From: a virus
Virus record (IMG/VR): IMGVR_UViG_3300023184_000604
Location: 1 to 20,892 of that record
DNA length: 20,892 nucleotides
Strand: one strand, 5' to 3'
The position numbers were made by a program, and so were the translations under genes. Shown here in pieces: positions 9,630 through 16,315 of this stretch. The stretch's first letter is position 1. Each line of letters starts with the position of its first letter. The notes beneath the pieces are model-generated. The model searched no databases, was not told the origin of the DNA, and was given only the letters and a program-made list of their open reading frames with translations.

Positions 9630-12600
9630 ATGGGCAACATATTTGGGGAAGGATTTCCCACAGAAATAATTAAACAAATAGGTATAAGGCAAGAATTCCA
9701 AGGGGCTGGTTTTTCAAATGAACAACGAGATGCAAATAATTTAAAATTAAGAAATAATACTGCTTTTTGTCAATTATTATCTTCTACTACAATTACTGAT
9801 TTAAAAAAACTTAATAATATTGGATTAATAGGTTTAGGTTTAACAGGTGATGCTTTAGCAAGAAAATACATGTTAAAAAATGGTGTAACCTCTTACAATG
9901 CAGAAACATTACCAGATGGTACAATACGTTATAAGGATATAGCAGCATATGGCATAACAGGTAATAAAATTAAAGGAGAACCTACAAGTTTAGATGCATA
10001 TGGTATAGGAGGAACAGATTTTGGAGGATACGCTCCAATGATGGGTATTATTGGTGCTGACATTAAATATAAAAACATGGGTTCTATTCGAATAGCCAAT
10101 GTAAAAATTAAAGCATTTAACAAAACCCAATTTGATATCATTGATATTTTATATTTACGTTTAGGATTTACTGTTCTTTTAGAATGGGGAAATTCTCTAT
10201 TTATAGATAATACATCAAATAAAGTTATTGATAATATCTATGGAAATGAACATGATGATTGGTTTAATAGTAGTGATTATTATGGTGTAATAAAAAAAGT
10301 ACAAGATAAAAGAAAAAAATCTTGTGGTAATTATGATGGTATGGTTGCTAAAGTTTCTAATTTTCATTGGTCATTTCAAAAAGATGGAAGTTATGACATA
10401 ACTGTTGATTTAGTTAGCATGGGAGACATTATAGAATCATTTAAAGTAAATAGAATATCACCTGATGATATAGCACCTGTAAATGAAAAAAAATATGATT
10501 TAGAATATCAAAATACTTATCAGGTATTAAACTACTATAAAAATACAAGTGAAATAGCTGGTTTTATTTTCGCTTTTTATGAAATAGCAAGAGGTACCTC
10601 TTGGCCAGGGGATGCTATATATAACATACAAGCTAAAACACCTAGAGAAAATACTAATTTTCAGACTACTTGGTATCTAAATTCTAATTCACCTACACAA
10701 CGTTTTCCAAATCCTTCTGGAAAAGATGGATTTGCAGAAGGAACAGCAGACTTTATTCAACCTGCTATAAATAGTTTAATTAAACCAGAAGAGGGATATA
10801 GCGAATTTGTTTTTATAAGATTAGGATGTCTATTAAGATTTATAGAAGAAGGAGTAATGTATTTTGCAAACAATGATTTAAAATCTCCTCTTTTAAAATT
10901 TGAATATTATGATATAGAAAAAACACTTATGCATGCTCCTTCTCAATTAATGAGCTATGATCCTAATGTATGCATGGTTAATAGAATAGTAAATTTCCCA
11001 GCACTTACAGACATTCCTCCAAATAGAAATTATTTTCCATTTGGTGAACCATTTGAATCTCCAAATGATTCTCAACATGGTCAAATAATGAACATATATT
11101 TAAATTGTAGAGCAGTTCTTAAAGCTCTTTCACAAACTAATGACAAAGACAAAGGACTTAATTTAATAGACTTTTTAAATGATTTATTAGGTCAAGTAAA
11201 TGTTGCTTTTGGTGGTTGGAGTGATTTAAATGCCTTTATTGATGAAGAAAATACTTTTGTAAAAATTATAGATAAAAATCCTCTTCCTAATTTAAAGAAA
11301 GTTTTAGGTTCTCAAGAATATGCTACTTTTGAATTAACAGGTTATTCACAAAGAGCAAAAGCGAATATTAAGGCTGGTTTTATAAAAGATTTTACTTTTA
11401 ACACAGAACTATCTCCTGCTTTTTCCACTATGATTAGTGTAAGTGCCACAGCTAATGGAAATGTAGTAGGAGAAAATAACACAGCTTTGTCTAAATTAAA
11501 CAATGGATTAACAGATAGATTTAGAAAAGAAATAAATAGTTATCCTACTCCATCTTTAACTACAACACTCACACCATTAGAATTAGCTGAAGCTAAGTAC
11601 AATACCGCATTTACTAATTTATGGACATTTGGAAAAACTTTAAAAACATACTTAGATAATTTAGAAGGACTATATTATTATAATGCTGAAATTGAACAAA
11701 ATAAAGATTCATTTAATAAGTATTGTAAACTTTATGTAAACATGAAAAATTATTTAGGAGAATATCTATATGAAAAAGATAAAGCAGCAGGTATTAAAAC
11801 TGCAACACCTTCAATAGAAACTTTTAATCCAAAAACAGGATTTATTCCTTTTAATTTATCTTTAACAATGGATGGACTGTCAGGTATGAAAATAGGAAGT
11901 AAATTTTTTATTGATTCTTCTTATTTACCTTCTAATTATCCTAATGTAGCAAATTTTTTAATTAAAAATCTCCAACATACTATTAATGAAAATGGATGGA
12001 ACACTAAACTAGAATCATTTTGTATAGCTGCTGGAAATGAAGATGATAACGTATCTCCTCCCTCTCCTCATATAATTATAGTTACTCCTGGAACACCTCC
12101 ACCTGCATCAGCACCAACAGCATGTGGAATTTCTACTATGTATTCACATCCTGGTAATGACTATAGAGGAGGAATTACAAAATGGATAGGAAACATAGTT
12201 AAATCAGCTAAATGTAACTTAAATGCTGTTACTTCTGATATTTATGATGCAGCACCACCACCTAATGATACAGACAGTGGTAATATGGGATGTGCTGCAG
12301 CTGTTTCTTTAATATTCTATAGAGCTACAGGATACTCTATTACTCAAAAACAATCTCCTGTTCCTTCAACGTGGCCTATTGCTACATTTCCTGGAAATGT
12401 AGGAACAACTGCTTTATATGATTTTTTTATCAGTAATACATCATTATGGACACAATATTCATTAGATAAAGCTCTACCAGGAGATGTTATTATAACTAAA
12501 AGATTTAATGCAACTAAAGCAGGCCATGTAGGTATAGTAATAGACACTATAAATGTTGATGGAACATATGATGTAATTTCAAATACATCTACTGGATTTG

Positions 12601-12722
12601 GTGGTACTAGAAAAGGAACCATACAACAAAATTACACTATTAAAACATGGAAAAATACTGTTATGCCAAAAAATCCAACAAAAACATTTTGCTTTAGATA
12701 TTCAGGAGGCTTTAGACCATAA
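9630..12722 (+). CDS. Baseplate hub protein fused to C-terminal CHAP/NlpC-P60-like lysis domain
   Basis: A 1030-residue protein. The N-terminal 800 residues look like a virion hub (beta-rich, with IGADIKYKNMGSIRIANVKI and LYLRLGFTVLLEWGN), with the role of T4 gp27 inferred from position after the gp53-like gene. A proline-rich linker (about 808-832, with PPSP and TPPP) leads to a cysteine-peptidase-like domain. That domain has NMGCAAAVSLIF with candidate nucleophile C888, a KALPGDVII turn, and AGHVGIVID with candidate H966. This is the usual Cys...GD...HVGI order of CHAP and NlpC/P60 enzymes that cut peptidoglycan. The role would be local wall degradation during DNA entry, the task of the gp5 lysozyme in T4. 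The exact clan is uncertain. Confidence 0.75.
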   Translation: MGNIFGEGFPTEIIKQIGIRQEFQGAGFSNEQRDANNLKLRNNTAFCQLLSSTTITDLKKLNNIGLIGLGLTGDALARKYMLKNGVTSYNAETLPDGTIRYKDIAAYGITGNKIKGEPTSLDAYGIGGTDFGGYAPMMGIIGADIKYKNMGSIRIANVKIKAFNKTQFDIIDILYLRLGFTVLLEWGNSLFIDNTSNKVIDNIYGNEHDDWFNSSDYYGVIKKVQDKRKKSCGNYDGMVAKVSNFHWSFQKDGSYDITVDLVSMGDIIESFKVNRISPDDIAPVNEKKYDLEYQNTYQVLNYYKNTSEIAGFIFAFYEIARGTSWPGDAIYNIQAKTPRENTNFQTTWYLNSNSPTQRFPNPSGKDGFAEGTADFIQPAINSLIKPEEGYSEFVFIRLGCLLRFIEEGVMYFANNDLKSPLLKFEYYDIEKTLMHAPSQLMSYDPNVCMVNRIVNFPALTDIPPNRNYFPFGEPFESPNDSQHGQIMNIYLNCRAVLKALSQTNDKDKGLNLIDFLNDLLGQVNVAFGGWSDLNAFIDEENTFVKIIDKNPLPNLKKVLGSQEYATFELTGYSQRAKANIKAGFIKDFTFNTELSPAFSTMISVSATANGNVVGENNTALSKLNNGLTDRFRKEINSYPTPSLTTTLTPLELAEAKYNTAFTNLWTFGKTLKTYLDNLEGLYYYNAEIEQNKDSFNKYCKLYVNMKNYLGEYLYEKDKAAGIKTATPSIETFNPKTGFIPFNLSLTMDGLSGMKIGSKFFIDSSYLPSNYPNVANFLIKNLQHTINENGWNTKLESFCIAAGNEDDNVSPPSPHIIIVTPGTPPPASAPTACGISTMYSHPGNDYRGGITKWIGNIVKSAKCNLNAVTSDIYDAAPPPNDTDSGNMGCAAAVSLIFYRATGYSITQKQSPVPSTWPIATFPGNVGTTALYDFFISNTSLWTQYSLDKALPGDVIITKRFNATKAGHVGIVIDTINVDGTYDVISNTSTGFGGTRKGTIQQNYTIKTWKNTVMPKNPTKTFCFRYSGGFRP

Positions 12723-12726
12723 AAAA

Positions 12727-13356
12727 ATGTATTATCCAAAATCACAAATTAAAACAAATTTATACACAAATGGAAATCCACCAAGTGACATATATGTTCT
12801 TTCTACAGATAAAACACTATACATAGGATACTATTATAAAATTTCAAATGGAGAAGTATTTACTGGAAAATCACCTTCTGATAAACCTAATATTTTACTA
12901 ATTCCTCAACCAGCAGGTGAAGGACAAGATGTTATTTTAGAAAAAAATAATTTAGTTGAATTTAATTTATCTGAAGCATCAACAGAAATATCTAATTATA
13001 TAAAATTAAAAAACATAGATGTAAATTTTTCAAGAACTTTACCTCTTCCATCTGCAAATCCTCCTACTTCTTTAGACTACACAAATGGAAAGTTTCCAAG
13101 ATATTTTTGTAAAAAAACAAACCAAACTATTTATTTAGAAATAAATAAAGATACATACGATAAACTAGTAAAACAAGATCCATCAATTCTTTATCAACTG
13201 TTCCAACCTTTTACTTTGACATGGACACTTATTGGCAACAAAGAACAAGTTGTTAAAAACAATCAAAATGTTGTTGAAAAAATTTCTAGCAGTTTAAGAA
13301 TTCAAAATTTAGCAGAATTTTTAAAAATGGATTTTACTAAATACTATAAACAATGA
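12727..13356 (+). CDS. Unassigned virion-operon protein
   Basis: A 209-residue protein that I cannot assign. The ATG at 12727, 4 nt after the hub stop, is chosen over an in-frame TTG at 12598 because the upstream stretch lies inside the hub gene's coding sequence in another frame. The N-terminal part has MYYPKSQIKTNLYTNGNPPS, then TLYIGYYYKISNGEVFTGKSP, a tyrosine-rich beta-looking module. The C-terminal half contains LFQPFTLTWTLIGNKEQVV. No membrane or signal segment is visible. It overlaps the next gene by ATGA (13353-13356). The context points to a baseplate or tail-fibre attachment component, but nothing proves it. Confidence 0.7.
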   Translation: MYYPKSQIKTNLYTNGNPPSDIYVLSTDKTLYIGYYYKISNGEVFTGKSPSDKPNILLIPQPAGEGQDVILEKNNLVEFNLSEASTEISNYIKLKNIDVNFSRTLPLPSANPPTSLDYTNGKFPRYFCKKTNQTIYLEINKDTYDKLVKQDPSILYQLFQPFTLTWTLIGNKEQVVKNNQNVVEKISSSLRIQNLAEFLKMDFTKYYKQ

Positions 13357-13820
13357 TTAAATTAATGACTTTATTAACCGAGTGTTTTTATACATCTCAA
13401 TGGTTAGATGTTTTACAAAAATATCCTCAAATTGTTAATTTACTTAAAAATGATAATGAAGTAAATAAACATAATTCTTTATTCGGAACTAAAATTAAAG
13501 ATTGGAATGATTTACAAAACATAGCATATCAAATAAGTTATTTGGGTGGACATTGTGGATTAGATGCTTTTACTTCTTTTAATTTAAAAACAATAGAACC
13601 ATTTATATTAGATACTATGACTAATAAAGATGGCTTTCCTATAACTAAAGAAACAGCAGAAAAATTTTTAAACATAGTCAAAGAATATTTTTATAAATAC
13701 AAAAATAAATCAAATTCAGATTGGATAGATATTGAATATAATAGATTAATAGATAGATTAGGTAAAGAAAAAGCTGATAACTGGTTAAAATGGCAAAAAA
13801 AAGTAAAATACTATAAATAA
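13353..13820 (+). CDS. Putative internal/injected protein with capsid-targeting-like N-terminus
   Basis: A 155-residue protein of unknown function, rich in Lys, Asn and aromatic residues. The first ten residues, MIKLMTLLTE, end in L-T-E, which fits the L/I-x-E cleavage rule of the T4 prohead protease. They look like the ten-residue capsid-targeting tags of T4 internal proteins and Alt. A nearly matching tag (MIRLVNLLKE) opens the kinase-like protein at 15719. The body has no recognised motif; ISYLGGHCGLDAF (61-73) is the most distinctive stretch. It is translationally coupled to the preceding gene and is the last gene of the virion block. Packaging and injection are inferred from the tag alone. 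Confidence 0.6.
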   Translation: MIKLMTLLTECFYTSQWLDVLQKYPQIVNLLKNDNEVNKHNSLFGTKIKDWNDLQNIAYQISYLGGHCGLDAFTSFNLKTIEPFILDTMTNKDGFPITKETAEKFLNIVKEYFYKYKNKSNSDWIDIEYNRLIDRLGKEKADNWLKWQKKVKYYK

Positions 13821-13857
13821 AGACATACGGATTAGGACCGTTATAGCTGCGGCTATG
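13821..13857 (+). ncRNA. Candidate structured small RNA (GC-rich element)
   Basis: Within a genome of roughly 30% GC, bases 13827-13890 are about 52% GC. Two hairpins can form: ACGG/CCGT (13827-13830 with 13838-13841, loop ATTAGGA) and ATAGC/GCTAT (13843-13847 with 13852-13856, loop TGCG). They lead straight into the terminator at 13857. No open reading frame uses this block. It does not fold as a tRNA (no T-loop consensus, no CCA end). It may be a phage small RNA or a processed 3' leader-trailer; its identity is unknown. Confidence 0.4.
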
Positions 13858-13903
13858 AAAGTACCCGACGACTCGCTATCTAGGGTGCTTTTACTTTTTT
13901 TTT
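13857..13903 (+). terminator. Rho-independent terminator at end of virion block
   Basis: AAAGTACCC (13858-13866) pairs with GGGTGCTTT (13883-13891) with one G-U wobble, around a 16-nt loop. A run of nine Ts follows at 13895-13903. It ends the virion transcription unit, or the small RNA candidate, before the polymerase gene. Confidence 0.82.
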
Positions 13904-13908
13904 AAAAC

Positions 13909-13939
13909 TTGGCTTTCCAAGATATTTTTAGTATCTTAA
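13909..13939 (+). promoter_or_regulatory. Weak candidate host-type promoter before polymerase gene
   Basis: TTG (13909-13911), a 20-nt spacer and TATCTTAA (13932-13939) give a partial match to the Bacteroidota TTG / TAnnTTTG consensus. The -7 element overlaps a perfect 6-bp inverted repeat, AAGATA (13919-13924) and TATCTT (13932-13937), which could be an operator. The last bases of the -7 box deviate, so this is tentative. Confidence 0.25.
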
Positions 13940-13961
13940 GAATATAAATTTTAAAAAGGTT

Positions 13962-15245
13962 ATGTTTTACATTGTAGAAACAAATGAACAGCTAAATGAA
14001 TTATTAAATAAAGGCTACAATAAAGTTTTTATTGAACCCATTTATTTTAATGACAATTATCATCCTTCATTAAACGACATATCTTTACTGTATTTAAAAC
14101 CGTTAAACAATGATAAAGGATATTTATTATGTCTTCATCATACTGAGGTTTTATCGCTGAATAAAGCGCCTATAAGCGCTTTACTTGCACAATACAATGA
14201 AATATATGTGCGTGATAGAAAATCATTTGTATATTACTTTCCTTTAACCAATTTAATAGACATTTCCTTTAATTCGCCAGAATGTGTAGAACCATCAACT
14301 TCAGCACATGATTTCTTTTATCAAAAACATGAAAGTTTAAAAAATGTAAACATTCTTATTCCTACAGTAAAACATTATGAAAAATGTGAACTTATATACA
14401 ATAAAGTAAAAGAATTTTGCGTAAAACCAAACAATGTAAAATTTTTAAATAAACTAACAAGTGTGTTTTTTTCAATTGAAAAAAATGGTTTAAAAACAGA
14501 CAAATACATTTTCGATAAGCATTTTGAAATCAACAATGAAGCGTTTTTTATGCACAATAATGTGGTTTATACTCAATATAATTTACACACTACAACTGGA
14601 AGATCTTCTAACAGCTTTAATGGTGTCAATTTCGCTGCTTTAAACAAAGACAATGGCAGTAGAAAGGCATTTGTTCCTAAAAACAATTGCTTTGTTGAAA
14701 TAGACATAAGCTCATATCACCCAACATTAGCAGCCCAATTGGTAAAATATGACTTTGCTAATGTCACACCATATGAGTACTTTGCAAAAGAGGCAAACAT
14801 AGAAGTAAGTGAAGCAAAGATTTTAATGTTTAAACAACTGTATGGAGGAATATACAAAAAATATCAACACATTCCTTACTTTCAACTAATTGAAGAACAC
14901 ATAAACAAACTGTGGGAAAATTACACAGCAAATGGATATGTTGAATGTCCAATTTCAGGACACAAATTTACCACTGACTTAAAAGACATAAATCCACAAA
15001 AGTTGTTTAACTATACGCTTCAAAATTTGGAAACGTCAACTAATGTTTGCATAATATGGGACATTATAAAAATACTAAAAGGCAAAGAAACGCAAATTGT
15101 GCTGTACACTTACGATTCTATACTGTTAGACTATAAACAAGAAGAAAACATACTTGAAAGCATCAAGCAAGTATTCAACAAATACAAGTTAAAAATTAAA
15201 CTAACAAAAGGTAAAAACTACGGGGCAATGGCTCTGTTACACTAA
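13962..15245 (+). CDS. Divergent family A DNA polymerase
   Basis: A 427-residue protein carrying the family A palm and fingers in order: TTTGRSSN (210-217), motif A as FVEIDISSYHPTL (D248), the fingers/O-helix-like EAKILMFKQLYGGI (284-297, in place of RxxxKxxxFxxxYG), NPQKLFNYTLQ (344-354), and motif C as LYTYDSILLD (D385) where Pol I has VHDE. Both catalytic aspartates are present. The N-terminal 130 residues occupy the place of the 3'-5' exonuclease but lack an obvious D-x-E metal site, so proofreading is probably absent or supplied elsewhere. The protein is much shorter than Pol I-type enzymes with exonuclease domains. T4 itself uses a family B polymerase. The start follows AAAAAGG, a weak Shine-Dalgarno-like run. 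Confidence 0.82.
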   Translation: MFYIVETNEQLNELLNKGYNKVFIEPIYFNDNYHPSLNDISLLYLKPLNNDKGYLLCLHHTEVLSLNKAPISALLAQYNEIYVRDRKSFVYYFPLTNLIDISFNSPECVEPSTSAHDFFYQKHESLKNVNILIPTVKHYEKCELIYNKVKEFCVKPNNVKFLNKLTSVFFSIEKNGLKTDKYIFDKHFEINNEAFFMHNNVVYTQYNLHTTTGRSSNSFNGVNFAALNKDNGSRKAFVPKNNCFVEIDISSYHPTLAAQLVKYDFANVTPYEYFAKEANIEVSEAKILMFKQLYGGIYKKYQHIPYFQLIEEHINKLWENYTANGYVECPISGHKFTTDLKDINPQKLFNYTLQNLETSTNVCIIWDIIKILKGKETQIVLYTYDSILLDYKQEENILESIKQVFNKYKLKIKLTKGKNYGAMALLH

Positions 15246-15718: not shown

Positions 15719-16315
15719 ATGATAAGATTGGTAAATTTATTGAAAGAGATTTATGATAAAAATTTAGTAGGTCCAGAGTATGGTCAAGGAGGACAACATG
15801 TTATTTATCAATATGGTAAAGATAAAGTAATAAAATTTAATTATAGTGAGGAAGGAGAAATAGGAGATAATTTAAAAATATTTACTAAATATCCTGATGT
15901 TTTTCCTAAAGTTTATGATATGGGATATGATTACGCTATTCTAGAAAAATTAGATGATAATAAAGCTAACTCAGAAATGTGGGAATGTAAAAAACATTTA
16001 TTCTCACAATCATCAGAAACTCCACCTAAAAATCAACATATTGCTAAATTAGTTCAAAGACCTCGAATTAAAGGACTAAATTGGTATAATTCTGAGATGA
16101 GTCAATTAATATATAATAATTTAGATGATAATGAATTGAAATCTCAATTACAAAAAGAACTACCAAGTAATTTATACAATTCTTTAATAAAAAATTGGTA
16201 TCCTTTATTCCAGAAAGTAAAAAGTATTTTATGGAGTTCAAAAATAGAAAAAGACATAAATGATGAAAATTTTGGATACAACTCAAAAGGAGAATTAAAA
16301 ATGTTAGATATATAA
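15719..16315 (+). CDS. Kinase-like protein with capsid-targeting-like N-terminus
   Basis: A 198-residue protein whose body follows the protein-kinase-like fold. It has a glycine-rich loop (YGQGGQHVIY, 21-30), a candidate ATP-lysine in KVIKF (K39), a hinge YAILEKLD (72-79), a catalytic-loop-like KDINDENFG (D179, N184) and a final KMLDI whose D197 takes the place of the DFG aspartate, immediately before the stop. The usual C-lobe after DFG is absent, so the protein may be a minimal kinase, an aminoglycoside-kinase-like enzyme or a pseudokinase. The first ten residues, MIRLVNLLKE, resemble a T4 capsid-targeting tag with L-K-E cleavage. Together with the late motif just upstream this suggests a virion-packaged, injected effector. 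Kinase activity is not shown. Confidence 0.6.
   Translation: MIRLVNLLKEIYDKNLVGPEYGQGGQHVIYQYGKDKVIKFNYSEEGEIGDNLKIFTKYPDVFPKVYDMGYDYAILEKLDDNKANSEMWECKKHLFSQSSETPPKNQHIAKLVQRPRIKGLNWYNSEMSQLIYNNLDDNELKSQLQKELPSNLYNSLIKNWYPLFQKVKSILWSSKIEKDINDENFGYNSKGELKMLDI

Follow-up and report, generated by a model that had tools for sequence, protein, structure and literature searches.

A phage RNA family with two conserved loops complementary to a contiguous stretch of 23S rRNA

A small structured RNA element lies at positions 13824-13895 of a viral DNA stretch of 20,892 nucleotides (IMG/VR record IMGVR_UViG_3300023184_000604), here called the window. It belongs to a conserved family of phage noncoding RNAs whose existence we regard as practically certain. 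The family was undescribed before. Both conserved loops are antisense to 23S rRNA 1919-1936, a key property absent from the initial annotation. That annotation had proposed a small regulatory RNA of no nameable class, and this is what we find: a covarying noncoding RNA family with no match in Rfam. Judged from the sequences compared, pairing with 23S 1919-1936 is probably the selected property. We consider it quite likely that the phages encode a stable small RNA which would pair through its two loops with this stretch in the host 50S subunit.

Architecture of the RNA element

Three consecutive hairpins had been annotated from the window alone. They are borne out by the fold and by covariation among relatives. 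The features of the element and of the gene before it are as follows.

13353-13820, plus strand: upstream ORF, 155 aa; its stop codon is 6 nt 5' of ACGG
13824-13895, plus strand: whole RNA element, the extent of covariance model R1, which was built without the window copy and finds it at E = 3.7e-6
13827-13841, plus strand: hairpin 1 by the fold, ACGG (13827-13830), loop A plus UUAGGA, CCGU (13838-13841)
13832-13841, plus strand: segment A, UUAGGACCGU, antisense of 23S rRNA 1919-1928
13843-13856, plus strand: hairpin 2 by the fold, AUAGC (13843-13847), UGCG, GCUAU (13852-13856); compensatory changes at 5 of 5 pairs
13858-13891, plus strand: hairpin 3 by the fold, 9 bp with a 16-nt loop, also the terminator stem; strands AAAGUACCC (13858-13866) and GGGUGCUUU (13883-13891); compensatory changes at 8 of 8 modelled pairs
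13873-13880, plus strand: segment B, UCGCUAUC, within the hairpin-3 loop, antisense of 23S rRNA 1929-1936
13889-13903, plus strand: T-rich tail TTTTACT9, a terminator-like 3' end by sequence; nine Ts at 13895-13903

The GC content is 49% over 13824-13895, and R1 matches the element once and nowhere else in the window. Hairpin 2 is closed by cUGCGg, a UNCG-type tetraloop, and both conserved loops are exposed in the predicted fold. The minimum free energy of the element is -21.5 kcal/mol (z = -2.25), and 6 of 200 shuffled sequences fold equally well. Taken alone, the folding energy is modest evidence for structure. Since it is only mildly unusual, the decision rests on the comparison with relatives.

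Family members and covariation

A search of IMG/VR with the protein sequence of the downstream polymerase, in which the RNA motif was not used, gave 15 loci. The element is present in 10 of the 14 loci with a readable upstream region, L005, L008, L009 and L010 being without it. In L009 and L010 an apparent HNH-type endonuclease gene is located directly 5' of the polymerase instead. Within the polymerase-linked set the stem of hairpin 3 is swapped wholesale, GCACCC/GGGUGC versus GCAUCUCGA/UCGAGAUGC; UUAGGACC is unchanged, as is the loop (U)UCGCUA. The first pattern scan yielded 71 stretches, partly chance matches in coding sequence, which were removed by demanding the structure. Pattern scans followed by this structure filter identify 112 distinct copies in IMG/VR, named class I, and there is a second class besides. 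Class I copies are found in the 735-kb huge phage LR756501 and on a Bacteroidetes MAG contig (L232) that is probably a phage. Exactly one copy per record is observed in 32 of 32 large phage records. The hairpin-1 loop ranges from 6 to 11 nt across the family. In class II the ACGG strand is missing, and some of its lineages carry a replacement hairpin, GUGGU/ACCAC or GUGGC/GCCAC.

Covariation was analysed in 30 copies aligned by structure with N padding. Both partners change at each of the 13 pairs in hairpins 2 and 3, and a single pair takes as many as four Watson-Crick types. The 100% pairing arises partly by construction, the alignment having been fitted to the structure; the number of pair types does not. 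The comparison with relatives by covariance, suggested in the initial annotation as a check, thus reveals compensatory changes at every pair of hairpins 2 and 3. It lends nothing to the loop-loop pseudoknot (UAG with CUA) suggested there, whose bases are invariant, so that no covariation supports it.

Rfam 15 gives nothing at the gathering threshold in the window and chance-level matches only in a relaxed search. At 13 loci with other copies it matches tRNA genes and nothing else. In GTDB a first pattern scan had no hits. A later one had nine, among them a single real copy (L232); the rest are tRNA-Leu genes or chance matches. R1 found no match over 296 Bacteroidota genomes, but the known positive G032 was missed there too. 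No family copy was found in twelve named phages searched, including RB49, where a match of 16.8 bits is at chance level.

Complementarity to 23S rRNA

The fixed positions of the family are located in hairpin 1 (ACGG, UUAGGA and CCGU) and in the loop of hairpin 3, where UCGCUA is followed by two pyrimidines (UCGCUAYY). With blastn the conserved core matches 23S rRNA on the opposite strand. Positions 1919-1936 of E. coli rrlB read ACGGUCCUAAGGUAGCGA, and the reverse complement is UCGCUA-CC-UUAGGACCGU. The two fixed motifs are the antisense of this contiguous 18-nt stretch, ACGGUCCUAA followed directly by GGUAGCGA, which comprises the 3' strand of helix 69 together with the strand next to it, at the subunit interface. 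The element carries the two antisense halves in permuted order relative to the target. In antisense 23S both motifs are found a single time and directly adjoin each other, with a joint chance of about 5e-6. In the window copy the complementarity of segment A continues with mismatches to 23S position 1906, and segment B has one G-U pair, at G1930. The complementarity score of this copy is 47, compared with a mean of 27 and a maximum of 37 among 60 shuffled elements. The predicted hybrid with the isolated rRNA fragment gains about 20 kcal/mol, mainly from segment A. Of the 81 Bacteroidota genomes with any match, 80 contain the 18-mer target exactly, and assembled rRNA is probably missing from the genomes of that set that gave no match. 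The target is identical in E. coli.

The complementarity is above chance and is kept under change, as expected of a trans-acting antisense RNA. After UCGCUA, pyrimidines are found in 98 of 98 and 90 of 98 copies at the two positions, in keeping with pairing to G1930 and G1929 by G-C or G-U, for which pyrimidines are needed. Class II, in turn, retains 18 unbroken nucleotides of helix-69 antisense, UUAGGACCGUUAUAGUUA. The rRNA-complementary segments and the element's own stem account for every invariant base, which leaves the self-cleaving element of the initial annotation unsupported; no ribozyme family in Rfam is matched even at relaxed thresholds.

Variation in hairpin 1 was followed in members counted as confirmed at a covariance-model E below 0.001. 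The retrieval patterns fixed the core motifs, and the invariance rests on the protein-found relatives and the relaxed scans, with few independent lineages. In confirmed members the last A of UUAGGA is replaced only by G (at least three lineages), by which a G-U pair with U1923 is kept. The inner pair of hairpin 1 is replaced only by A-U (L225 and L275-L281), with U-G to G1922 kept, and the next pair likewise only by A-U (L285, L294 and L295), with U-G to G1921 kept. The weaker L289 (E = 0.004) also has A-U at this next pair. Copies altered at the third base of UUAGGA were sought in the relaxed scan and none was found. In hairpins 2 and 3, 38% of the Watson-Crick replacements are of such transition type. 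Two constraints thus seem to act on hairpin 1, its own stem and the rRNA. The wobble result is supportive, not proof: independent lineages are few, transitions are mutationally easier, and a bias from G-C to A-U could occur without an rRNA partner.

Genomic placement

Of 103 copies, 80 have the end of a same-strand ORF (60 codons or more) no further than 45 nt upstream, compared with 7.5% of random positions, and the median distance from stop codon to ACGG is 6 nt. The upstream genes vary among copies and the downstream gene is sometimes convergent; neighbour functions at other loci were read off the sequences, without profile tests. Past UCGCUA, TTTT is found within 45 nt in 89 of the 112 class I copies. 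At five loci (L025, L045, L076, L176 and L199) the element lies a few to about 15 bases behind a tRNA gene, with a second tRNA close downstream at two of them (L045 and L199). The L045 element lies in a tRNA array and its T-run is missing. This is the placement of an RNA gene whose product is processed and stable.

In the window, the element ends the gene block preceding a family-A-like DNA polymerase, which shares 39% identity with the polymerase of Flavobacterium phage immuto. Genes for SSB, UvsX, an exonuclease and a DnaB-type helicase are also found beyond the element. The ORF at 13353-13820 is without Pfam or PHROG match. A T4-late-like TATAAATA at 13812-13819 had been noted just upstream of the element. 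It spans the last codons and the stop of this ORF (TAT AAA TAA), a coincidence of the stop codon, and no more than 5 of the 103 copies scored have it upstream; its reading as a T4-late promoter is rejected.

Several other features of the window may be recorded. The region 13905-13960, between the element and the polymerase start, is AT-rich and contains a second small hairpin, CTTGGCTTTCCAAG, at 13908-13921, plus GATATTTTTAGTATC. Patterns like TTNGG...TATTTTA recur among polymerase-linked relatives, and this region is perhaps a promoter of the replication block. At 427 aa the polymerase (13962-15245) reads as a short family A type; sequenced phages contain few relatives of it (six records), and neither Pfam nor PHROG gives a match at E 0.001. 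A 198-aa ORF in the replication block (15719-16315) looks kinase-like by eye (GQGGQHVIYQYG...VIKFNY), and the C-terminal part of a 1030-aa virion-type protein (9630-12722) looks cysteine peptidase-like (CAAAVSLIF...GHVGIV); both are without Pfam or PHROG match.

Alternative explanations

The terminator with nine Ts that was originally annotated is present in the window, and most copies likewise end in a terminator, but it explains the 3' part only. With its GC-rich stem and T-run, hairpin 3 has what defines an intrinsic terminator, TTTT follows in the majority of copies and the element is seated at gene ends. It is nevertheless very improbable that the whole is just an intrinsic terminator of the ordinary kind, separating the virion operon from the replication operon, with hairpins 1 and 2 incidental. 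Conservation is not confined to stem and T-run but includes hairpins 1 and 2, of which hairpin 2 covaries, and the hairpin-3 loop, whose invariant UCGCUA is not needed for termination. Furthermore, there are tRNA-array copies without T-run such as L045, and terminators are not distributed one per genome. The start of the element a few bases past stop codons, the terminator formed by hairpin 3 in most copies and the polymerase gene that follows in the window would also suit a cis-acting mRNA element, a read-through switch or 3'-end stabiliser which senses ribosomes or free 23S rRNA and gives no free RNA. We hold this to be unlikely, as the neighbour genes differ on both sides, the next gene may be convergent, and the tRNA-array copies share no adjacent gene to control.

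Protein-binding RNAs, too, typically have invariant loops set in a covarying scaffold, and the third base of UUAGGA never varies, though G-U pairing would tolerate a G. The fixed loops might accordingly be the site of a phage or host protein or of a partner other than rRNA, with the 23S complementarity coincidental or ancestral. The contiguity of both motifs in antisense 23S makes this quite improbable, and both the pyrimidine pair past UCGCUA and the direction of the hairpin-1 changes track the rRNA. Hardly credible is a degenerate tRNA or a mimic of the tRNA-Leu(UAG) anticodon arm, to which the hairpin-1 loop nUUAGGA is similar. Three of the nine GTDB pattern hits are indeed tRNA-Leu(UAG) genes and some copies lie within phage tRNA arrays, but the variable length of the hairpin-1 loop, compared with 7 nt in an anticodon loop, largely refutes it. 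The acceptor and D arms are missing, a cloverleaf with a 7-nt anticodon loop is not found at the element, ARAGORN and Rfam call no tRNA there, and class II lacks the arm.

Proposed function

Pairing with 23S rRNA, the reading that we prefer, is supported by the covariation, the single copy per genome, the contiguity of the motifs, the kept G-U pairs, the antisense of class II, the conservation of the target and the genomic placement. Counting against it, the antisense is not simple and continuous, the segments being permuted relative to the target, and the target is folded in mature ribosomes. A free, trans-acting RNA is likely. An RNA of ~70-80 nt would be released from an mRNA 3' end or from a tRNA-array transcript. 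Its UUAGGA(CCGU) in hairpin 1 and UCGCUAYY in hairpin 3 would pair side by side with 23S 1919-1936, touching adjacent rRNA stretches as two kissing loops, and hairpin 2 and the stems would be the scaffold that presents them. A plausible partner is the free or maturing 50S subunit, whose interface would be occupied. The consequence could be slower subunit joining, 50S assembly or host translation, to the benefit of the phage. Blocked subunit joining, disturbed 50S assembly and reprogramming of captured ribosomes are all candidate outcomes and the data favour none; that the RNA inhibits subunit joining or 50S assembly is a tentative expectation, somewhat less probable than not.

No natural small RNA directed at the universally conserved 23S rRNA core is known to us, and a literature search of open-licence papers found no phage RNA against 23S rRNA. 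Helix 69 is the chief component of bridge B2a and touches the A- and P-site tRNAs. Within it, the change A1919G renders ribosomes inactive, and with A1916G the formation of 50S or 70S is impaired (PMC1190176). The portion of a Grad-seq study cited here places phiKZ ncRNAs and phage tRNAs in ribosomal fractions, and an RNA of the present kind is not described in that portion (PMC8545117). Should the RNA bind, it would be a phage-evolved RNA equivalent of antibiotics that target the subunit interface. The target site would be hard to mutate, which would fit the spread in phages with genomes of up to 735 kb.

Comparison with known systems

Trans-acting antisense small RNAs of bacteria and phages are likewise structured; their loops are complementary to a second RNA, and the 3' end is usually a terminator. 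The known ones target mRNAs, whereas here the target is the universally conserved 23S core, matched by two loops in permuted order. Homing introns and endonucleases of LSU rRNA (I-CeuI type) and R2 elements recognise the same 23S/28S stretch. They act on the DNA of the rRNA gene, while the present element is a folded RNA whose segments are permuted, and no endonuclease is involved. GOLLD, ROOL and HEARO are noncoding RNAs of phage genomes, some near tRNA genes, but they are far larger than the present RNA.

T4 stable RNA D (species 2 RNA) and RNA C are similar in being small stable phage RNAs that adjoin a tRNA cluster. In RNA D (L250 1554-1672; homologues L251-L256) the hairpin CCGG-GUCGCUA-CCGG is invariant in 7 of 7 aligned Tevenvirinae sequences, and its UCGCUACC is an exact 8-nt antisense of 23S 1929-1936, as in the present family. 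RNA D differs in having no UUAGGACCGU segment and in overall fold and length. Its remaining 23S complementarity is not above the level of shuffled elements, and RNA C was checked for an antisense match to 23S and has none. As only the UCGCUACC loop is in common, RNA D was rejected as a family member. The loop in RNA D is a lead only, by which RNA D is possibly also a ribosome-directed RNA. More broadly, many large phages may use a natural antisense RNA whose two loops grip host 23S rRNA at helix 69 and the strand after it, so that ribosomes are blocked or reprogrammed at the subunit interface, T4 RNA D being a distant functional counterpart via UCGCUACC; to us this proposal stands nearly in the balance. 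If the present RNA binds its target, the old question of T4 stable RNA function also becomes testable.
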